Below are positions 37,902 through 47,038 of a DNA stretch of 64,000 nt, in pieces. This DNA comes from Chitinophagaceae bacterium. Its GTDB lineage: Bacteria > Bacteroidota > Bacteroidia > Chitinophagales > Chitinophagaceae. The notes under the pieces were generated by a model. The model searched no databases. It was not told the origin of the DNA and saw only the letters and a list, made by a program, of their open reading frames with translations. Location: assembly GCA_947457465.1 (NCBI GenBank), contig CANGWB010000009.1, positions 1 to 64,000 on the forward strand, written 5' to 3'. The first letter of the stretch is position 1, and every line of letters begins with the position of its first letter. Both the position numbers and the translations under genes were made by a program.

Positions 37902-38596
37902 GTGATACCGCTGTTGTATACCTGATCCCTACGTGGATCGATGAATCGGCTCCGCAGACTCTACCTGCTTATATTCTGGAGATCGTTCAGCAATGCCAGG
38001 ATCTGTTTGTCGAAAATGAACGAACGACCCGTCGCTTTCTAAAGTCTTTACGTAAAGAGATCGTCATCGATTCATTCAACTGGTATCGTATGGATGAGGA
38101 GGGTGTTGAAACAACATTTCGCCAGTCGATCCGATCGAAGCGGGTTATCGGTATCATCAGCGAAGCGGGTTGTCCGGGCATCGCCGATCCCGGCCAGGCC
38201 TTGGTTGCTATCGCACAGGAGATGCAGGTGCTTGTCCGACCCTTGGTTGGTCCCAGTTCCATTTTACTAGCGCTGATGGGAAGTGGAATGAACGGACAGT
38301 CTTTCACCTTTCACGGTTATCTGCCCATCGATGCCAGTGCTCGGAATCAGGCGATCCGAGCGCTGGAGCAGGACTCCTTGAAACATCAACGAACCCAGCT
38401 GTTCATCGAAACCCCCTACCGGAATAATGCCCTGCTACAGGCATTGCTTCAACTGCTGCAACCCGGCACCCGGCTATGCATCGCCGCAGACATCACGGCT
38501 CCCACGCAGTTCATACAGACAAAAACCGTTTCGGACTGGAAAAAGCAGCAACCCGACCTGCATAAACGCCCCGTGCTGTTTCTGATTCAGGCCTGA
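37898..38596 (+). CDS. RsmI-like SAM-dependent methyltransferase
   Basis: Encodes 232 residues of the tetrapyrrole-methylase fold. SAM-binding and family motifs are VIGIISEAGCPGIADPGQ, GPSSILLALMGSGMNGQSF and QLFIETPYRNNALLQALL, close to RsmI, which 2'-O-methylates C1402 of 16S rRNA. The N-terminus (VVYLIPTWIDESAPQTL) is diverged from classic RsmI, so this may be a paralogue with another target. Coupled to the EI24 gene by an ATGA overlap. Confidence 0.83.
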   Translation: MSDTAVVYLIPTWIDESAPQTLPAYILEIVQQCQDLFVENERTTRRFLKSLRKEIVIDSFNWYRMDEEGVETTFRQSIRSKRVIGIISEAGCPGIADPGQALVAIAQEMQVLVRPLVGPSSILLALMGSGMNGQSFTFHGYLPIDASARNQAIRALEQDSLKHQRTQLFIETPYRNNALLQALLQLLQPGTRLCIAADITAPTQFIQTKTVSDWKKQQPDLHKRPVLFLIQA

Positions 38597-38653
38597 CACG
38601 AACAAGTGTGAGCAAACGCAAAAAAACAAGGGCGATTCCGTTGTAATTCTTTT

Positions 38654-38661
38654 TACTTTTG
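38654..38661 (+). promoter_or_regulatory. -7 element (TACTTTTG) of the arginine operon
   Basis: Exact TAnnTTTG match in the 297-base gap after the RsmI-like gene. Transcription from it gives a leader of about 225 nt before the first structural gene. Confidence 0.6.
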
Positions 38662-38767
38662 TCCCCCTGAATTAAACTCGGTGACCAACCTGCTCACCCA
38701 TACCAAACAAGTGGCCTTTCATCGGTCCATCACCAGCGGTGTTTATTCCGTTGGGTTTGATGTATTT

Positions 38768-38803
38768 ATGTTCAGTCGTCCCCGACGAACCCGTAGATGC
38801 TGA
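38768..38803 (+). CDS. Arginine-rich leader peptide
   Basis: The ATG at 38768 opens an 11-residue frame, MFSRPRRTRRC, then TGA at 38801-38803. Five codons are Arg (CGT 38777, CGA 38783, CGA 38786, CGT 38792, AGA 38795). The same frame is open upstream to a GTG at 38681, so a 40-residue form is possible, but the ATG form has the classic size. The stop codon sits at the base of a strong hairpin (38800-38835). The peptide itself probably has no function; ribosome speed over its Arg codons would report charged tRNA-Arg. It is directly upstream of an eight-gene arginine operon. Confidence 0.7.
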   Translation: MFSRPRRTRRC

Positions 38804-38887
38804 CAGGACGAACCCCTCACCCTGGTCCCTGTCAGTGAACATCCCCCGAGTATTTATTTGGACTGGTGAACCTCCCTCAATTTTTTT
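38800..38887 (+). promoter_or_regulatory. Putative arginine attenuator region
   Basis: CTGACAGG (38800-38807) pairs perfectly with CCTGTCAG (38828-38835), starting at the leader stop codon. As an alternative, TCACC (38817-38821) and GTCC (38825-38828) can pair with GGTGA (38865-38869) and GGAC (38860-38863); the two folds compete. Seven T bases follow at 38881-38887. Upstream, TCGTC (38776-38780) within the Arg codons can pair with GACGA (38784-38788) or, extended, with GGACGA (38806-38811). I do not see a canonical terminator stem touching the T run, so the exact mechanism is open. Confidence 0.55.
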
Positions 38888-38893
38888 AAGACA

Positions 38894-39574
38894 TTGAATT
38901 CTACCGACCTCATCATTCGGATCGCCGAGCCGACCGATAAAAAATTCGCCACCACGATCACCGACGAGATGGCCGCCTCTGCCGCTGCGCGGGGTACAGG
39001 CATCGCCAAACGTAGTCCAGACTACATACAAACCAAAATCGATGAAGGCAAGGCCGTGATCGCACTCACAACTCAAGGAGAGTGGGTTGGTTTTTGCTAC
39101 ATAGAAACCTGGGGCCATGGTGAATACGTGGCGAACAGCGGATTGATCGTCTCTCCTGCCTACCGAAAAAGCGGCGTAGCCAAAGCGATCAAGAAACGAA
39201 TCTTTGAACTCTCCCGGGAAAAATATCCGCATGCCAAGATATTCGGCCTCACAACCGGTTTAGCCGTGATGAAGATCAACAGCGAACTCGGCTATGAGCC
39301 GGTAACCTATTCGGAGCTTACACAGGATGAAGCATTCTGGGCCGGATGTAAAAGCTGCGTCAACTATGAGATCCTGATGAGCAAGGACAGAAAGAACTGC
39401 ATGTGTACCGCCATGCTCTATGATCCAACCGATCACTATGAACCGGCCGAAACCAAACAATTCTTCGAAGAAAATAAAACGGTTTTTGAACGATTGCTTC
39501 GATTCAAGCAATGGAAACTGCTACGACCGATCCTCAAATCTTTCAAAGAAAAAAATTCACCTGCCAAACCATGA
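38894..39574 (+). CDS. GNAT acyltransferase, probable N-acylglutamate synthase of the arginine operon
   Basis: Encodes 226 residues. The start is TTG at 38894: an in-frame stop lies nine codons upstream and no ATG or GTG intervenes. The GNAT fold is seen in GFCYIETWGHGEYVANSGLI and the acyl-CoA loop SPAYRKSGVAKAIKKRIF. As first gene of an operon that lacks argJ and any other argA, it is the candidate for acylating glutamate, from acetyl-CoA or succinyl-CoA. Two Cys pairs follow the fold, GCKSCVNYE and KNCMCTAM, suggesting a metal site. It overlaps argG by 4 bases. Confidence 0.82.
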   Translation: MNSTDLIIRIAEPTDKKFATTITDEMAASAAARGTGIAKRSPDYIQTKIDEGKAVIALTTQGEWVGFCYIETWGHGEYVANSGLIVSPAYRKSGVAKAIKKRIFELSREKYPHAKIFGLTTGLAVMKINSELGYEPVTYSELTQDEAFWAGCKSCVNYEILMSKDRKNCMCTAMLYDPTDHYEPAETKQFFEENKTVFERLLRFKQWKLLRPILKSFKEKNSPAKP

Positions 39575-40776
39575 GCAAAAAGATCGTTCTCGGATTCAGT
39601 GGTGGACTAGACACTTCCTATTGCGTCAAATATTTACGCGATGACCTAGGCTATGAAGTACATAGTATTCTAGTAAATACCGGTGGGTTTTCCGATGAAG
39701 AATTGCAGCAGATAGAAGCACATGCCCATACACTCGGAGTAGCCTCCCATAAAACACTGAACGCGATACGACCCTACTACGACCGAATCCTTCGCTACCT
39801 GATCTATGGAAATGTATTAAAGAACAATACCTATCCTCTTTCCGTTTCTGCTGAACGACTCATTCAGGCGCTAGGCATTGCGGATCATGTGAAGGAACTG
39901 AATGCCGACGCCGTTGCACATGGCAGCACAGGCGCCGGAAACGATCAGGTACGATTCGATATGATCTTTCATATCCAGATCCCGGGCGTACCCATTCTCA
40001 CGCCCATCCGCGATCAACAACTCAGCCGCGAAGCAGAGATCGAATACCTGAAAGCAAAAGGCGTGCAGATGAATTTTTCTAAAGCAGCCTATTCTATCAA
40101 CAAAGGACTCTGGGGTACGAGCGTTGGGGGAAAAGAAACACTTTCGTCAAATGGCATGCTTCCTGAGGAAGCCTGGCCCACTCCTGTATCAAAGACCGGA
40201 ACGGAAGCGATACGATTGGATTTTGAAAAAGGCGAACTGATCGCCGTCAACGAAAATCGCTTCGAACACCCCAGCCAAGCCATCCAATTCTTGCAAACAC
40301 TGGCCGGACCATACGGCATCGGCCGAGACATCCACGTAGGAGATACCATCATCGGCATAAAAGGCCGAGTCGGGTTTGAAGCTGCGGCCCCAATGATCAT
40401 CCTGAAAGCACATCATGCACTGGAAAAACATGTGCTCACCAAATGGCAACTGCAATGGAAAGATCAGTTGGCCTTGTTCTATGGCAATTGGCTGCATGAG
40501 GGACAGATCCTCGACCCTGTCATGCGGGATATAGAAGCTTTCTTATCCCATTCCCAGGAACAAGTGAGCGGATCCGTTTTTGTACAACTGAATCCTTATC
40601 GTTTTCAAGTAACCGGCATTGAAAGCCTATACGACCTGATGAACAGCCGATTCGGGAAATACGGGGAGATGAATGCAGGCTTTACCGGAAACGATGTACG
40701 CGGCTTCAGTCGGATCGCCGGTCAACAGACTATTATCCATGAATCTGTCAAACGCTCCGTCGATGAAGAAAATTAA
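39571..40776 (+). CDS. argG: Argininosuccinate synthase
   Basis: Encodes 401 residues from the ATG at 39571 (MSKKIVLGFSGGLDTSYC). It joins citrulline and aspartate with ATP, the seventh step to arginine. The N-type ATP pyrophosphatase motif is FSGGLDTSYC, and AHGSTGAGNDQVRFDMIF binds substrates. The sequence is diverged from E. coli ArgG in its C-terminal half but covers the normal length. Overlaps the GNAT gene by 4 and argC by 14 bases. Confidence 0.94.
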   Translation: MSKKIVLGFSGGLDTSYCVKYLRDDLGYEVHSILVNTGGFSDEELQQIEAHAHTLGVASHKTLNAIRPYYDRILRYLIYGNVLKNNTYPLSVSAERLIQALGIADHVKELNADAVAHGSTGAGNDQVRFDMIFHIQIPGVPILTPIRDQQLSREAEIEYLKAKGVQMNFSKAAYSINKGLWGTSVGGKETLSSNGMLPEEAWPTPVSKTGTEAIRLDFEKGELIAVNENRFEHPSQAIQFLQTLAGPYGIGRDIHVGDTIIGIKGRVGFEAAAPMIILKAHHALEKHVLTKWQLQWKDQLALFYGNWLHEGQILDPVMRDIEAFLSHSQEQVSGSVFVQLNPYRFQVTGIESLYDLMNSRFGKYGEMNAGFTGNDVRGFSRIAGQQTIIHESVKRSVDEEN

Positions 40777-41746
40777 CGTTGGCATACTCGGTGCTGCCGG
40801 CTACACCGGCGGCGAATTGATCCGCCTGCTGATCAATCACCCGAACGCAGCTATCACTTTTGCACATAGTCGCAGCCAGTCCGGAAAACCACTGCAATCG
40901 GTTCACGCCGATCTGATCGGCGAACCAGAGATGAACTTCACCGATTCATTTTCACTTGATTCGATCGATGTCCTCTTTCTCTGCCTAGGGCATGGCGAGT
41001 CACGCACATTCCTGGAGTGTACAAAACTCCCCGACACGTTACGCATCATCGATCTGACCACCGACTTTCGTCATCACGCATCAAATCAATTCCAGTCCGA
41101 GACATTCGTATATGGATTACCGGAACTGAATCGAGACCGAATCAAAAATGCGCGCTTCGTCGCCAATCCCGGTTGCTTCGCTACCGCCATCCAACTCGGA
41201 TTATTACCACTGGCAAAAGCGGGCAAACTTTCATCGATTCACACCACGGGCATCACCGGCAGTACAGGAGCCGGACAAAGTCTAAGCGCCTCCACCCATT
41301 TCAGTTGGCGATCCAATAACATTCAGGCCTATAAAACACTGGAGCATCAACACGGACAAGAGATCAGAGAATCCTTACTTCAACTCTCCGGACAAGAATC
41401 ACTCGAACTGAACTTCGTTCCCTGGCGTGGTGATTTCACCAGAGGTATTTTCATCAGCTCAACGATCGATTGTGATCTGTCCGCCGAAACATTGAACAAC
41501 CTATACCTTGATCACTACAACACGCATCCCTTTACGCATGTTTCCAGTGAGCCGATCTTTTTGAAACAAGTGGTCAACACCAACAAAGCTTTGGTACAGC
41601 TGGAAAAGGTGGGAAGCAAGTTGGTGGTGCACACGGTGATCGATAATCTGCTGAAAGGCGCCAGCGGTCAGGCTGTACAAAACATGAACCTGCTGTTTGG
41701 ACTGCCTGAAACAAGCGGACTTCAACTAAAAGCCAGTTATTTCTGA
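40763..41746 (+). CDS. argC: N-acyl-gamma-glutamyl-phosphate reductase
   Basis: Encodes 327 residues from the ATG at 40763 (MKKINVGILGAAGYTGGEL). It reduces the N-acylglutamyl phosphate to semialdehyde with NADPH. The Rossmann motif GAAGYTGGELIRLL is at residues 10-23, and the catalytic Cys is in ANPGCFATAIQLGLLPL. Starts inside argG (14-base overlap) and is joined to argD by a TGATCATG junction. Confidence 0.95.
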   Translation: MKKINVGILGAAGYTGGELIRLLINHPNAAITFAHSRSQSGKPLQSVHADLIGEPEMNFTDSFSLDSIDVLFLCLGHGESRTFLECTKLPDTLRIIDLTTDFRHHASNQFQSETFVYGLPELNRDRIKNARFVANPGCFATAIQLGLLPLAKAGKLSSIHTTGITGSTGAGQSLSASTHFSWRSNNIQAYKTLEHQHGQEIRESLLQLSGQESLELNFVPWRGDFTRGIFISSTIDCDLSAETLNNLYLDHYNTHPFTHVSSEPIFLKQVVNTNKALVQLEKVGSKLVVHTVIDNLLKGASGQAVQNMNLLFGLPETSGLQLKASYF

Positions 41747-41748
41747 TC

Positions 41749-42897
41749 ATGAAACTATTTGACGTATACCCGCTCCAACCCATTACCATCGAACGTGCTT
41801 CGGGTAGCTCTGTTTGGGATGAGAAAGGACAAGAATACCTGGACCTTTATGGAGGACATGCCGTAATCAGTATCGGGCATGGCCATTCGCATTGGACTAA
41901 GCGAATCGAAGAACAACTCCACAAAATCTCTTTTTATTCTAACTCGATACAGATTCCGCTTCAGGTGGACCTGGCCGAGAAACTAGGTCGAGTAAGTGGA
42001 AAGAACAATTATCAACTGTTTCTATGCAACAGCGGCGCCGAAGCGAATGAGAATGCGCTGAAGCTTGCCAGTTTTCATACCGGTCGAAAACAGATCATCG
42101 CTTTCAAGGGCGCTTTTCATGGTCGAACCTCGCTTGCCGTCTCCGCGACTGATAATAAAAACTACATCGCTCCCGTAAATGAAACAGAGAATGTGACTTT
42201 TCTTCCATTCAATGATATCGGAGCACTGGAAGATCATTTCAAAAAGGATGGCGACAAGATCGCGGCGGTGATCGTGGAGGGCATACAGGGTGTTGGTGGC
42301 ATTCGCGTTGCCTCCAATGAATTCCTTCAATCGATCCGAAGCTGTTGTGATCAATATGGAGCCGTATATATTGCCGACAGTGTTCAGTGCGGATACGGAC
42401 GAAGCGGAAAATTCTATAGCCATGATCACTCCGGTGTAGATGCTGATATTTATACGATGGCCAAAGGCATGGGTAATGGATTTCCCATTGCCGGCATTTC
42501 GATCGCACCGCATATCAAACCCAAACATTTTCAACTCGGCACCACTTTCGGTGGAAACCACCTTGCTTGTGCGGCCGCCCTGGCAGTACTCGAAGTGATC
42601 GAGTCAGAGAAACTCATCGAAAACGCTGCCCATCTAGGAGACCATTTGCAAACTTCGATACGAGCCATTCCTGAACTGAGTGATGTTCGTGGATACGGGC
42701 TGATGATCGGATTCGATTATACTGAAACGATTTCAACCCTACGCCAGCACCTGCTATTCCAAAAACACATATTCACCGGAGAAGCAAAACCCCGAGTGGT
42801 TCGGCTACTTCCTTCACTCGCCCTGAGCCGTAGTAATGCGGACCGATTTCTTCAGGATCTCCGCGACTCGATTCAAGAAATTCAATCCGCCTCATGA
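41749..42897 (+). CDS. argD: N-acylornithine aminotransferase
   Basis: Encodes 382 residues, a class III PLP transaminase. It converts N-acylglutamate semialdehyde to N-acylornithine. The PLP Lys is in YTMAKGMGNGFPIAG; NSGAEANENALKLA and FKGAFHGRTSLAVSAT are family motifs. It overlaps argF' by 4 bases (ATGA). Confidence 0.94.
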   Translation: MKLFDVYPLQPITIERASGSSVWDEKGQEYLDLYGGHAVISIGHGHSHWTKRIEEQLHKISFYSNSIQIPLQVDLAEKLGRVSGKNNYQLFLCNSGAEANENALKLASFHTGRKQIIAFKGAFHGRTSLAVSATDNKNYIAPVNETENVTFLPFNDIGALEDHFKKDGDKIAAVIVEGIQGVGGIRVASNEFLQSIRSCCDQYGAVYIADSVQCGYGRSGKFYSHDHSGVDADIYTMAKGMGNGFPIAGISIAPHIKPKHFQLGTTFGGNHLACAAALAVLEVIESEKLIENAAHLGDHLQTSIRAIPELSDVRGYGLMIGFDYTETISTLRQHLLFQKHIFTGEAKPRVVRLLPSLALSRSNADRFLQDLRDSIQEIQSAS

Positions 42898-43847
42898 AAA
42901 ATTTCATATCCGTACACGACGTATCCGATCTGAATGGTCTTGTAAAAAAGGCCTTGCAGTACAAGGCAGCCCCTCTTTCCGACCAATCTCTCGGGAAAGG
43001 GAAGCGTATCGGACTGCTGTTTCTCAATCCCAGTTTGCGTACACGCCTCAGCACGCAAGTAGCTGCCCAGAACCTCGGCATGGAAGCGATCGTATTCAAC
43101 GTAGGTCAAGAAGGATGGGCACTGGAGTTCGAAGAAGAAGCGATCATGAGCGGGAACACGGTTGAGCACATAAAAGACGCCGCCCCTGTGCTCAGTTTAT
43201 ACTTTGATGTGCTGGCGATCCGCACGTTCCCCTCATTGAAAAACAGAGAAGATGACTACAGTGAGCTGTTCATCAATCAACTTATCAAGTATGCCGGAAT
43301 CCCGGTTGTAAGTCTTGAAAGCGCCACGCTGCATCCCTTACAAAGTTTTGCAGATCTGATCACCATTCAAGAAACCTGGAAAGAGATAAAAAAACCAAAG
43401 GTGGTGTTAACCTGGGCCCCACATGTAAAACCACTCCCTCAATGTGTGGCCAACAGTTTCTCACAATGGATGACCCATTGGGGCAGATGTGATTTTACCA
43501 TTGTTCATCCCGAAGGCTACGAATTGGCGGAAACCTTTACAAAAGGGGCCACGATCCTACATGATCAAAAAACAGCGCTTCAAGATGCCGATTATGTTTA
43601 TGTAAAGAACTGGAGCACCTACAACGACTATGGCAAGATCTATGAAAGTGACCCGAGTTGGATGTTGACGAATAAGCATCTTCTGACCACCCATAATGCA
43701 AAGGTCATGCATTGCTTGCCGGTTCGCAGAAACGTGGAGTTGAGTGATGAAATACTTGACGGATCAAATAGTCTTGTCACGCAACAAGCGGGCAACCGCG
43801 TCTGGGCTGCACAAGCCGTTTTAGCTGATATTATTAAAAACGCATGA
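42894..43847 (+). CDS. argF': N-succinylornithine (or N-acetylornithine) carbamoyltransferase
   Basis: Encodes 317 residues. Carbamoyl phosphate binding uses FLNPSLRTRLST and the HCLPVRRN motif near the end. VVSLESATLHPLQSFADLIT replaces the usual HPxQ segment of ornithine transcarbamylases. Trp75 (GQEGW) and position 90 are the residues known to set N-acyl choice in this family: Glu gives acetyl, Pro (also Val, Ser, Ala) gives succinyl. Here residue 90 is Val (MSGNTVEHI), which predicts N-succinylornithine. Coupled by 4-base overlaps on both sides. Confidence 0.9.
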   Translation: MKNFISVHDVSDLNGLVKKALQYKAAPLSDQSLGKGKRIGLLFLNPSLRTRLSTQVAAQNLGMEAIVFNVGQEGWALEFEEEAIMSGNTVEHIKDAAPVLSLYFDVLAIRTFPSLKNREDDYSELFINQLIKYAGIPVVSLESATLHPLQSFADLITIQETWKEIKKPKVVLTWAPHVKPLPQCVANSFSQWMTHWGRCDFTIVHPEGYELAETFTKGATILHDQKTALQDADYVYVKNWSTYNDYGKIYESDPSWMLTNKHLLTTHNAKVMHCLPVRRNVELSDEILDGSNSLVTQQAGNRVWAAQAVLADIIKNA

Positions 43848-44629
43848 ACGAACTACTGATCATAAAGATCGGCGGACAAGTGATCGATGATCCGCAAACG
43901 CTGGATCGATTTCTGAAGGAATTAGCAGGGATCGAGACCCCCTGCATACTCATACACGGAGGAGGTAAACTCGCTACCCGCCTGTGCGAACGCCTGGGGA
44001 TCGAAGCGAAAATGATAGAAGGCCGACGGATCACCGATGCTGCAACCTTGGAGATTGTAACCATGGTTTATGGCGGACTGATCAACAAACAGATTGTTGC
44101 CGCCTTACAGGCATGCGGAAAAAATGCGATTGGCCTTACGGGAGCAGATGGCGACCTGATCCGCTCGAAAAAAAGGGTGCACGCTACGATCGATTACGGA
44201 TTCGTAGGGGATATAACCCAGGTAAATACAGATGCATTCGAAAAAATTATCGGGCACGGACAGATACCGGTGATCGCTCCGTTGACACATGATGGAAATG
44301 GTCAGATTCTGAATACTAATGCCGACACGATGGCACAATCCATCGCTGTAGCCTTAAGTCGCACATTTCAGACATCGCTCGTTTTCGGATTTGAGAAAGC
44401 CGGTGTGCTTCGTGACCGATCAGATGAATCAAGTGTGATTTCACGCATCAATCGATCCGAATACAAGACCTTGAAAGAGAACGGCACGGTCAATGAAGGG
44501 ATGATCCCCAAGCTAGACAATGCCTTTCAAGCCATCGATGCAGGCGTGAACCGGGTTGTGATTGGAAAAGCGGACCGATTGTCCGAACTTTTGAACGGAA
44601 ACAGCGGAACTATCTTGTCAAATGAATGA
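43844..44629 (+). CDS. argB: N-acylglutamate kinase
   Basis: Encodes 261 residues of the amino acid kinase fold. It phosphorylates N-acetyl- or N-succinylglutamate. ATP and substrate motifs: LIIKIGGQVIDD at the start, LIHGGGKLATRLCERLGI, and EGRRITDAATLEIVTMV. GMIPKLDNAFQAIDAGV is the second nucleotide motif. It lacks the long N-terminal helix found in arginine-inhibited, hexameric kinases, so feedback by arginine may be absent here, in line with control at the leader. Overlaps argE by 8 bases. Confidence 0.93.
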   Translation: MNELLIIKIGGQVIDDPQTLDRFLKELAGIETPCILIHGGGKLATRLCERLGIEAKMIEGRRITDAATLEIVTMVYGGLINKQIVAALQACGKNAIGLTGADGDLIRSKKRVHATIDYGFVGDITQVNTDAFEKIIGHGQIPVIAPLTHDGNGQILNTNADTMAQSIAVALSRTFQTSLVFGFEKAGVLRDRSDESSVISRINRSEYKTLKENGTVNEGMIPKLDNAFQAIDAGVNRVVIGKADRLSELLNGNSGTILSNE

Positions 44630-45704
44630 GCCTCTCAACATATTAAATGATAAAGCGATCGACCTGCTTCGATCCCTGATCAAAATTCCTTCCTTCAGCC
44701 GGGAAGAATCGGTCACCGCTGATCGCATCGCTGCCTTTTTACAGGAAAACGGAATCCCCTCGGAGCGGATCGTAAATAATGTGATCGCCCGAAATAAGGA
44801 GTTTGATATTCGTAAACCGACGGTGTTGCTGAATTCTCATCATGATACTGTCAAGCCCAATGCTCAGTACACACGTGATCCATTCTCGCCCGACATAGAA
44901 GACGGAAAACTATACGGACTCGGCAGTAACGATGCAGGAGGCTGCCTGGTTTCGCTGATCGTAACATTTTTACATTACTATCCGAAAACCGATCTCCCCT
45001 ACAATGTGATGCTGGCAACGACAGCGGAAGAAGAGATCTCCGGACCGGGAGGCGTGGAGTTGATCTTACCGCATTTGCCGAACATCGATTGCGCCATCGT
45101 GGGTGAGCCCACTAAATTGGATCTGGCCGTGGCAGAAAGAGGACTAATGGTACTGGATTGTGCGGCCGTGGGTCAAGCAGGACATGCTGCTCGAAATGAG
45201 GGCATCAATGCTCTGGAGAAAGCTCTGGATGATATTCAATGGATACGCTCCCATCGTTTCGAACGCGTCTCTGATTTTCTCGGCGCTTGTAAAATGACAG
45301 TTACGGTCATTGAAACAGCCAATAAAGCACATAACATCATTCCCGCCGAATGTAAGTTCGTCGTTGATGTACGGGTCAATGAATTGTACTCTTTTGAAGA
45401 GGTATTAGAAGAGATCCGTTCGAATATCGGTGCCACCATTACGCCCCGAAGTTTTCGTTTGCGTTCCACCTCTATATCTACGGACCATCCCCTGGTGCAG
45501 GGTGGTATCAAGATGGGCCGCAAGCCTTATGGATCTCCGACCACCTCGGATAAAGCACTGATGCCATTTCCTGCATTGAAGTCCGGTCCGGGTGATTCGG
45601 CTCGCAGTCACTCCGCGGATGAATTTATTTATGTGGAAGAGATCCGAAGCGGTATCGAGCACTATATCAAACTCATTGAAAACCTTCAGCAATCCCGATC
45701 ATGA
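44622..45704 (+). CDS. argE: M20-family N-acylcitrulline/N-acylornithine deacylase
   Basis: Encodes 360 residues. Zinc ligands and catalytic residues appear in LLNSHHDTVKPN (His, Asp), LGSNDAGGCL (Asp), TTAEEEISGPGG (Glu pair) and ARSHSADEFIYVEEI (His). In the argF'-type pathway the deacylation occurs after carbamoylation, so the substrate should be N-succinyl- or N-acetylcitrulline rather than acetylornithine. That assignment is inferred from the operon. Overlaps argB by 8 and argH by 4 bases. Confidence 0.9.
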   Translation: MNEPLNILNDKAIDLLRSLIKIPSFSREESVTADRIAAFLQENGIPSERIVNNVIARNKEFDIRKPTVLLNSHHDTVKPNAQYTRDPFSPDIEDGKLYGLGSNDAGGCLVSLIVTFLHYYPKTDLPYNVMLATTAEEEISGPGGVELILPHLPNIDCAIVGEPTKLDLAVAERGLMVLDCAAVGQAGHAARNEGINALEKALDDIQWIRSHRFERVSDFLGACKMTVTVIETANKAHNIIPAECKFVVDVRVNELYSFEEVLEEIRSNIGATITPRSFRLRSTSISTDHPLVQGGIKMGRKPYGSPTTSDKALMPFPALKSGPGDSARSHSADEFIYVEEIRSGIEHYIKLIENLQQSRS

Positions 45705-47038
45705 AACTTTGGCAAAAGGATACAAATAGTCAACCGGCCGTACATGCGTTCACCGCCGGGAAGGATCGTCAGCTGGACAGTTATTTGGCCGCACACGATG
45801 TGATCGGATCGCTGGCACATATTCAGATGCTGCATCGGATCGGAATATTGACAAGGGAAGAATGGCAGTTGCTCCGGGACGCACTCCGAAAGATCCATAC
45901 TGATGTAACAGCCGGTTCATTCACCCTCTCCGAGGATGTGGAGGATATACACTCACAGGTAGAATGGCTGTTGACTGAAAAGCTGGGGGACATGGGAAAG
46001 AAGATCCATGCCGCCCGTAGTCGGAATGATCAGGTGTTACTGGATATTCGGTTATTTCTGCGCGCTGAACTGGAATCGCTCGTAAATGAGATCGATACCC
46101 TGTTCAAATTACTGCAGGAGAAAAGCGAAATGCATAAAAATGATCTGTTACCTGGCTATACCCACCTGCAATTAGCGATGCCATCCTCATTCGGACTTTG
46201 GTTCGGTGCTTATGCGGAAAGTCTGTCTGATGACCTGATCACACTGGAGGCCGCCTATCGGGTAGTCAATAAAAATCCATTGGGTTCAGCTGCCGGTTAT
46301 GGGTCTTCCTTTCCGATCGACCGGACTTATACAACCGAGTTACTCGGATTTGATTCGATGAACTACAACGTCGTTTATGCACAAATGGGAAGAGGTCGAA
46401 GCGAACGGATCGTAGCGCAGGCGATGGCCAATGTGGCTGATACGGTGGGCCGATTGAGTATGGATGTATGTCTTTACCTGAATCCGCAATTTTGGTTTCT
46501 CTCCTTTCCGGATGAACTCACCACCGGCAGCTCTATCATGCCTCACAAAAAAAACCCGGATGTATTTGAACTGACCCGGGCCCGTTGCAACAGGCTCAAA
46601 TCCCTTCCGAATGAAATACAGCTGATCACCGCTAACCTGCCATCCGGCTATCACCGTGATCTGCAATTACTAAAGGAAAATCTATTCCCCGCCTTGGGCG
46701 AATTGCGGGATTGCATACAAATGACAACCTTTATGCTCCAACAGGTATCGGTGAAAAAAGATATTCTAGAGGATAAAAAATTCGATTACCTCTTCAGTGT
46801 TGAAGCGGTGAACCGGCTCGTACAAACCGGCATTCCGTTCCGCGATGCCTACAAACAGGTCGGTCGAGCGATCGAAGCCGGTGAATTCACACCTGAGCGA
46901 GCATTGAATCACACGCATGAAGGAAGCATGGGACACCTATGTAATTCAGAAATCGCTGCACAATATCAGTCGACCCGTGACCGCTTCCCTTTTCAGCAGA
47001 TCGGGGAGCAGATCGTACGCTTGCTGACAGGTGAATAG
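45701..47038 (+). CDS. argH: Argininosuccinate lyase
   Basis: Encodes 445 residues of the fumarase/aspartase superfamily. It releases arginine and fumarate, the last step. The signature GSSIMPHKKNPDVFELTR carries the catalytic serine; HAARSRNDQV and LPGYTHLQLAMPSSFG are also diagnostic. Last gene of the operon. The M1 protease gene follows 21 bases later with its own candidate promoter. Confidence 0.96.
   Translation: MKLWQKDTNSQPAVHAFTAGKDRQLDSYLAAHDVIGSLAHIQMLHRIGILTREEWQLLRDALRKIHTDVTAGSFTLSEDVEDIHSQVEWLLTEKLGDMGKKIHAARSRNDQVLLDIRLFLRAELESLVNEIDTLFKLLQEKSEMHKNDLLPGYTHLQLAMPSSFGLWFGAYAESLSDDLITLEAAYRVVNKNPLGSAAGYGSSFPIDRTYTTELLGFDSMNYNVVYAQMGRGRSERIVAQAMANVADTVGRLSMDVCLYLNPQFWFLSFPDELTTGSSIMPHKKNPDVFELTRARCNRLKSLPNEIQLITANLPSGYHRDLQLLKENLFPALGELRDCIQMTTFMLQQVSVKKDILEDKKFDYLFSVEAVNRLVQTGIPFRDAYKQVGRAIEAGEFTPERALNHTHEGSMGHLCNSEIAAQYQSTRDRFPFQQIGEQIVRLLTGE

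Follow-up and report, generated by a model that had tools for sequence, protein, structure and literature searches.

ArgR is the repressor to which control of arginine synthesis is usually ascribed. Translated leaders offer another means of control: the fungal arginine attenuator peptide is encoded by a leader upstream of an arginine-synthesis gene, and in SpeFL and TnaC the nascent chain in the exit tunnel binds a metabolite and holds the ribosome. In the leader orf34 of Salmonella speF, low arginine stalls the ribosome at two consecutive Arg codons (12 and 13), upon which a hairpin downstream of the stop codon forms; a ribosome at the stop prevents this hairpin, Rho is involved, the peptide is conserved, and frequent and rare Arg codons are equally effective (PMC6386406). 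The eight-residue leader rbfL of Staphylococcus aureus (MVLKYRKR) senses arginine by its Arg codons, overlaps the ribosome-binding site of the next gene, and represses on stalling (PMC13009471). Tandem Cys control codons characterize uORFC-8-2, a conserved upstream open reading frame (ORF) before cysS in Rhodobacterales that was found by comparison alone (PMC8632094), and leader-peptide attenuation upstream of amino-acid operons has been suggested, in one sentence, for Flavobacterium psychrophilum (PMC9723704).

Here, we describe the leader of an arginine operon in a 64,000-nucleotide stretch of Chitinophagaceae DNA (the whole stretch analysed, henceforth the window; Table 1). On comparison with related loci, we consider it probable that this leader mRNA is a cis-acting, ribosome-mediated, arginine-responsive attenuator. 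This reading draws on comparative evidence for an ORF under purifying selection, for Arg codons with a preference for CGA, for a hairpin, and for a link to the first operon gene, an N-acetylglutamate-synthase-like (NAGS) gene, in genomes in which ArgR was not detected; from it, we infer the arginine response, its direction, and an output through Rho. Since the stop codon lies inside the conserved hairpin, the ribosome itself is probably the sensor of arginine supply.

Table 1. Features of the leader and operon; positions are those of the window.
Feature	Positions	Strand	Remarks
Leader mRNA promoter candidate	38654..38661	+	TACTTTTG; ends 19 nt before leader GTG
Leader ORF	38681..38803	+	40 codons, GTG start, TGA stop 38801-38803: (M)TNLLTHTKQVAFHRSITSGVYSVGFDVFMFSRPRRTRRC
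Terminator- or pause-like hairpin inside leader ORF	38733..38754	+	CCAGCGG...CCGTTGG, weak T run
Arg control codons	38777..38797	+	38777 CGT, 38783 CGA and 38786 CGA (tandem), 38792 CGT, 38795 AGA; at -8, -6, -5, -3, -2 before stop
Stop-codon hairpin, stem P1	38800..38835	+	38800-38807/38828-38835; perfect 8-bp inverted repeat
Loops of stop-codon hairpin	38808-38811; 38815-38823	+	Internal loop ACGA; apical loop
Inner stem P1b	38812-38814/38824-38826	+	Within stop-codon hairpin
Leader-stop-to-operon spacer	38804..38893	+	90 nt, C-rich, G-poor, without intrinsic terminator
Apical-loop strand UCACC	38817..38821	+	Candidate pseudoknot; pairs 38865-38869
Downstream strand GGUGA	38865..38869	+	Partner of hairpin loop; 24 nt before TTG
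NAGS-like GNAT gene	38894..39574	+	First operon gene, TTG start
argG, argC, argD, argF-type carbamoyltransferase, argB, argE/dapE-like, argH	39568..47038	+	NCBIfam matches

The upstream neighbour is an RsmI-type methyltransferase gene ending at 38596. The initial annotation's letters for the promoter candidate and its placement of an arg operon downstream were checked directly and agree with the sequence. We take TACTTTTG to be a -7 promoter element of the TAnnTTTG type used in Bacteroidota; the same pattern, followed 8–34 nt downstream by the leader start, occurs at 70 of the 75 class A loci defined below. The first operon gene encodes a GNAT domain, and its presumed NAGS role derives from operon position. 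Several of the arg operon matches fall below the curated NCBIfam cut-offs, and gene names were therefore taken from the best match plus gene order; the carbamoyltransferase gene after argD is of the N-acetyl/N-succinylornithine carbamoyltransferase type.

A search of 97 related genomes, among them that of the window, located the NAGS gene in 57. Further loci came from a wider contig search, from whose 551 matching loci the best 80 were taken, and one locus missed by tblastn (L056) was added by hand; after removal of 14 duplicates, the working set comprised 123 loci. Class A consists of the 75 loci with the hairpin CTGA(C/T)AGG...CCT(A/G)TCAG upstream of the NAGS gene, a selection pattern that did not include the inner stem P1b, the loop pairing, the ORF, or Arg codons; at each of these 75 loci, an open frame has its stop codon at hairpin bases 2–4. 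Cultured species are represented in class A by Terrimonas pollutisoli H1YJ31 (L069), Niabella pedocola JCM 31011 (L077), and Flavisolibacter nicotianae X7X (L087), among others. A covariance model of the leader element (R1) matched 40 of the 97 genomes, once per genome, and 39 of the matches were strong. By coordinates, 38 of these 39 lie beside the NAGS gene, the exception (G006) being on another contig of a fragmented assembly; the weak match (G091, 23.7 bits) is probably due to chance. With search filters strict enough that weak matches can be lost, R1 had no match in seven genus members in which the NAGS gene was likewise not found (G002, G003, G017, G023, G025, G029, and G031; 1.6–2.6 Mb), and these genomes may belong to arginine auxotrophs. 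The NAGS gene of G039 lies at a contig edge and has no R1 match, and the corresponding place in G053 consists of Ns.

How, then, does this leader compare with the systems described above? Like the fungal arginine attenuator peptide, to which it is likened by description alone, it precedes an arginine-synthesis gene; unlike here, the fungal system is eukaryotic and depends on arrest by free arginine. The closest precedent appears to be Salmonella orf34-speF, for which the same geometry is described from experiment (PMC6386406): common to both are a short leader ORF, consecutive Arg codons (67 of the 75 class A leaders), and a hairpin at or just after the stop (75 of the 123 loci). The Salmonella leader, however, controls ornithine decarboxylase in another phylum, whereas the present one stands upstream of an arg operon for arginine synthesis; here, moreover, the stop codon is part of the hairpin, for which a pseudoknot is possible, the SpeFL family PF10940 is not matched, and the Arg pair lies at the C-terminal end rather than at codons 12–13. 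As in the trp/his attenuators (PMC1183508), control codons for the operon product lie in the leader ORF and the position of the ribosome would set the folding of the RNA; in contrast to those attenuators as described there, 75/75 loci lack an intrinsic terminator from leader to gene, a covarying antiterminator/terminator pair was not seen, and the leader is longer and apparently selected at the peptide level. With rbfL (PMC13009471), the leader would share arginine sensing via Arg codons, but stop and start are 90 nt apart here; with uORFC-8-2 (PMC8632094), it shares tandem control codons in a conserved upstream ORF, although the amino acid there is cysteine and the source describes no link to arginine genes. 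The Flavobacterium psychrophilum proposal (PMC9723704) concerns the same phylum and the same broad idea; its main-text passages on the subject mention neither an arginine leader nor a peptide family or hairpin, and its supplement may list an arginine case. Given that proposal and the His leaders with terminators before hisG in the window's genus (see below), the initial annotation's remark that no case had been described in this phylum was too strong. In our own search of the open-licence literature, mostly judged at title and abstract level, no paper on a leader of an arginine operon in Bacteroidota came to light.

The peptide had initially been read as an 11-codon frame, MFSRPRRTRRC, running from ATG 38768 to the TGA. 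That frame is present, but only as the tail of the 40-codon ORF that begins at GTG 38681. Among 38 aligned leaders, the position of this GTG holds ATG in 28 and GTG in 6 (34/38), with TTG in one of the other four and an indel misaligning the remaining three rows (L077, L078, and L081, kept in the 38-row alignment and left out of a 35-row version); the position of ATG 38768, by comparison, encodes Met in 2/38 (the window and its nearest relative) and Thr in 29. Across codons 2–31 of the 35 leaders, pS is 0.684 and pN 0.092, and the resulting pN/pS of 0.135 is close to the 0.114 of the NAGS gene (34 of the 35 leader loci). In the 38-row alignment, the ratio is 0.275 in frame versus 1.9 in frames +1 and +2, and minor-letter fractions at the three codon positions (0.126, 0.125, and 0.379) place variation mostly at third positions. 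By these comparative measures, the leader ORF is under purifying selection at the amino-acid level close to that on the enzyme, and such enzyme-like conservation suggests that the nascent peptide matters too. The window leader has no Pfam match up to E 10, PF10940 (SpeFL) included, and a known peptide family was rejected for this reason; another leader gave one sub-threshold match, to an animal domain.

All five Arg codons pointed out initially among those eleven are in place (Table 1), and the Arg-rich short frames with covarying stems that had been proposed as a check are found in relatives. Specifically, an upstream ORF with at least three Arg in its last ten codons precedes the NAGS gene at 95 of 122 loci (L029, with Ns, was left out of this count), compared with 104/2440 dinucleotide shuffles (~4%) and 20/122 reverse complements. 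A tandem Arg pair occurs in 67/75 class A leaders; taking, where there are several, the one most distant from the stop, CGA opens this pair in 62 of the 67, and the pair's first codon sits at -6 (41 leaders), -5 (3), -4 (22), or -3 (1). In the 38-row alignment, every row with Arg at -6 encodes it by CGA (35/35). CGA accounts for 104 of the 989 Arg codons of NAGS genes and for 49 of the 168 in the window's own genes, and because of this latter frequency ‘rare codon’ would be the wrong label for it here; CGN codons as a whole make up 217/231 Arg codons of class A tails versus 601/989 in NAGS genes. In the leaders L007 and L009, the tail contains just one Arg, at -3.

The perfect 8-bp hairpin reported at the leader stop codon is confirmed in the sequence. 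Stem P1 is near-invariant among the 75 class A loci, with a single variable pair (C-G in 48, U-G in 15, and U-A in 12), although this identity is partly by construction because class A was chosen with the P1 pattern; a C-A mismatch, which that pattern permits, was never seen. P1b is fully paired in 73/75 (as ACC:GGU, GCC:GGC, GCA:UGC, GCC:GGU, CCC:GGG, or GUA:UGC), and the alignments indicate that this inner stem covaries. Over the 70 distinct hairpin sequences, 99.7% of cells are paired and 54 cells are two-sided versus 18.2 in shuffles, while, counted by pair, two-sided changes (3 pairs) do not exceed shuffles (2.9). The unpaired ACGA is itself near-invariant (63/75 class A), as is a flank GUGAA (within 38834-38839; CAGUGAA in its wider form); neither is explained by pairing, and both may mark a tertiary contact or a binding site.

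For the pairing of the apical loop with the downstream strand (UCACC:GGUGA), comparative support is moderate: 94.7% of cells are paired in 38 sequences, and four of the five pairs have two-sided changes, each in one sequence only. The core of this pairing (ACC:GGU) occurs in 54/75 class A loci and was not found in 21/75, Ferruginibacter-like rows among them. Of the 54, 14 break the second pair and 40 form all five pairs, four of these with a compensatory change at the second pair (UAACC:GGUUA and UUACC:GGUAA) and one as UGACC:GGUUA; taken locus by locus, the loop helices reach p<=0.05 in 19/75. The initial annotation had presented 38817-38828/38860-38869 as a fold competing with the hairpin. 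The UCACC:GGUGA part of that fold is no rival, being a loop pairing that can coexist with the hairpin as a pseudoknot, and the truly exclusive part (38825-38828/38860-38863, GUCC:GGAC), which is paired in 92.1% of cells with 0 two-sided changes, was rejected for want of covariation. A mutually exclusive antiterminator/terminator pair was thus not found, GUCC:GGAC being without two-sided changes and the spacer without a terminator.

If the leading edge of the ribosome is assumed to lie 11 nt past the first base of the A site, 68/75 class A leaders have an Arg codon at which a stalled ribosome leaves all eight 5' nucleotides of P1 free, and 73/75 leave at least six of the eight free, while a ribosome at the stop covers all eight. 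The modelled geometry thus fits the proposal, made initially, that a finishing ribosome covers the hairpin and an Arg-stalled one leaves it free. In the mechanism that we favour, transcription would start near 38668 and the ribosome would translate the 40-codon leader. With charged tRNA-Arg scarce, it would stall on reaching the tandem CGA-CGN pair, shortly before the stop-codon hairpin; the hairpin would then form, probably together with the loop-to-downstream pairing, and the operon would be ON. With arginine plentiful, the ribosome would reach the UGA inside the hairpin and open its 5' strand, and the operon would be OFF. This OFF step would proceed without an intrinsic terminator in the spacer; its likeliest basis would be the loading of Rho onto a leader RNA rich in C and poor in G. 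Alternatively, the RNA might be degraded, its translation might be blocked, or the in-ORF hairpin might be involved.

Terminator-like sites (loop of 3–10 nt plus a T run) were found between leader and gene in 0/75 class A loci, and an intrinsic terminator in the spacer was rejected on this count. When loops of up to 36 nt with a high score were admitted, there was one weak candidate in 75 (L069), and inspection by eye showed, at L041, a bulged stem with a long loop and a T run that falls outside the scan rules. The seven T bases noted at 38881-38887 exist in the window but are not common to the aligned spacers. The genus offers a telling comparison: of 39 genomes of the genus, 13 were found to have hisG (loci L247–L259; the genome of the window gave no match to it), and at all 13 it is preceded by a His-rich leader (e.g. 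MKKYTHNHHHFLLCQGRP) and by a strong terminator of the type GGGCTTAC...GTAAGCCC plus T run, with a score reached by 3.1% of shuffles. Judged from their sequences, these hisG leaders are classic His attenuators, so leader-peptide attenuation occurs in the genus. The Arg leader differs from them in having no intrinsic terminator in its spacer; the initial idea of trp/his logic applied to arginine fails on this point (0/75 against 13/13 for hisG), and by the same sequence test the element is not a textbook trp/his attenuator.

Control by access to the TTG start, the other output initially suggested, was rejected by folding each of the 75 leaders both with a ribosome placed at the stop and without one: stalling is not predicted to open the start (11/75 become more open and 34/75 less), and mean predicted openness is 0.552 with a stalled ribosome versus 0.568 with a ribosome at the stop. 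A terminator-like scan of 1.5 kb of the window gave three sites versus 1.9 expected. Inside the leader ORF, a terminator- or pause-like site occurs in 17/75 class A leaders versus 5.1% of shuffles, mostly as one homologous hairpin, which may act as a pause site or, on leader RNA that is not being translated, as a terminator. The spacer is rich in C (0.269) relative to G (0.171), with C exceeding G in 75/75 loci versus 6/75 in the gene, and the excess is common to the leader ORF (72/75). Because the leader RNA is C-rich and G-poor and Rho is encoded in the window's genome, Rho-dependent termination is a possible output.

Two other kinds of leader bear on whether peptide or hairpin is the essential part. 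Class B leaders end in RRPRI and have no P1, yet their profile matches that of class A (hhalign probability 89%, E 2e-6, for hand-chosen rows of 36–41 residues). Conversely, a class A sub-clade (L004, L007, L009, L023, L027, L028, and L030; genomes of 1.7–2.1 Mb) has leaders of 16–17 codons and other sequence, its promoter having shifted along with the shorter ORF, and keeps the P1 hairpin. Peptide and hairpin have thus each been lost separately, which favours two cooperating parts. The best-surviving alternative holds that a nascent chain of ~40 residues arrests the ribosome at the leader end on binding arginine (or ornithine), its Arg residues acting as peptide rather than as hungry codons. 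The enzyme-like pN/pS, the related peptide that class B carries without P1, and the shared length of the chosen rows speak for such an arrest peptide; the conservation of CGA at -6, where other Arg codons would give the same residue, the short leaders of other sequence with the same hairpin in the seven-locus sub-clade, the want of a PF10940 match, and the fact that the A3 and A4 profile rows were hand-chosen speak against it, and we regard it as unlikely.

The near-invariant letters of P1, the ACGA loop, and the GUGAA flank amount to more than a plain attenuator needs, and together with a possible H-type pseudoknot they would suit an RNA element that binds a metabolite or protein in the manner of a riboswitch, the leader ORF merely bringing ribosomes. 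This we consider improbable: the class A hairpin holds the stop codon of a frame that is Arg-rich in nearly all loci, Arg leaders occur without this hairpin in other families, and the window leader has no match in Rfam 15, also at E 10 on 38600-38950, for which reason a known riboswitch or RNA family was rejected. Amino-acid-level selection could also reflect a small protein acting in trans in a role of its own, a reading made very improbable by the occurrence of the element once per genome beside the NAGS gene and its absence from genus members in which that gene was not found, by its replacement with other short frames in the sub-clade, and by the adjacency of Arg tail and stop-codon hairpin. 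That the perfect inverted repeat with its conserved letters is a DNA operator bound by a repressor is hardly credible, since the repeat is situated at the leader's stop codon, ~130 nt into the presumed transcript, the pairing of loop with downstream strand would require RNA in single-stranded form, and ArgR was not found in 58 genomes.

Class C leaders (25 loci, e.g. L097, L099, L103, L106, L114, and L128) end in ...VRR* or similar (CGACGTTGATA), and homology of their peptides to class A or B is not supported (probability 1.2% and 2.2%, respectively). Inside the ORF, 20/25 have the letter pattern GCGT(N)GGG-T5 and 21/25 an AG-T-run element, which resemble terminators that a translating ribosome would override. 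In family f43 (e.g. L210, L224, L227, and L235), 14 of 20 leaders start with MQ and, for the most part, finish with RRR (e.g. MQTLCTYRINFTALRRIPRRR); a hairpin there starts 13–16 nt after the last Arg pair in 11/19, so the f43 mechanism must differ from that of class A.

Across the phylum, Arg-rich leaders were seen at 61 of 109 loci, versus 12.3 expected from shuffles and 13 in reverse complements, and outside the window's family they precede the NAGS gene at 53/99 loci, versus ~12 expected (110 of 132 places were read, two more, in G074 and G087, were already in the locus set, and 20 were not included). By family, they occur at 20/20 loci in f43, 7/7 in f28, 8/10 in f1, 5/8 in f23, 11/25 in f25, and 2/3 in f18, are near chance in f44 (3/8) and f57 (3/7), and were not seen at the loci of f24, f29, f30, f31, f47, and f67. 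Because leader sequences vary greatly across the phylum, we claim shared Arg leaders only, not shared hairpins; a phylum-wide stop-codon hairpin was rejected, the 92 leaders outside class A having a median z of -0.52, whereas 61/66 class A leaders are below -1. Outside class A, f43 stands out with 15/19 below -1, and perhaps f23 with 3/5.

ArgR (PF02863) was found in 0/58 genomes, the window's own included, while 8/14 control genomes were positive. In a phylum sample of 296 genomes (the same for both genes as far as genome handles are listed), the NAGS gene is present in 125 and ArgR in 109, but ArgR occurs in 3/125 genomes with the NAGS gene versus 106/171 without it. One of the three (G045) belongs to the window's family and has the R1 element; its ArgR match is borderline (25 bits, with one internal stop). 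In the other two, of family f31, ArgR lies directly upstream of the NAGS gene (G321:C6:164461-165285 and G329:C1:650941-651784), and no Arg-rich leader was seen upstream of NAGS in either; to judge from sequence, ArgR stands there where relatives have an Arg leader, a natural swap of regulator type. We offer a broader proposal tentatively and with more doubt than conviction: these leaders may constitute a new family of arginine-sensing leader peptides across distant Bacteroidota families, a counterpart of ArgR, in which a tandem CGA-CGN pair and a nascent chain of ~40 residues would act jointly and in which, with the stop codon in a pseudoknotted RNA, the terminating ribosome would itself turn off the operon with no intrinsic terminator standing ahead of the gene.

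In this group, ArgR is hardly found beside this type of operon (3/125), and a translated leader appears to replace it. The reading as a leader switch would also explain a conserved small ORF that has no Pfam match. The element provides a compact model for the way in which a terminating ribosome might act on an RNA structure, and it bears on whether leader peptides are selected as peptides or just as rows of codons.
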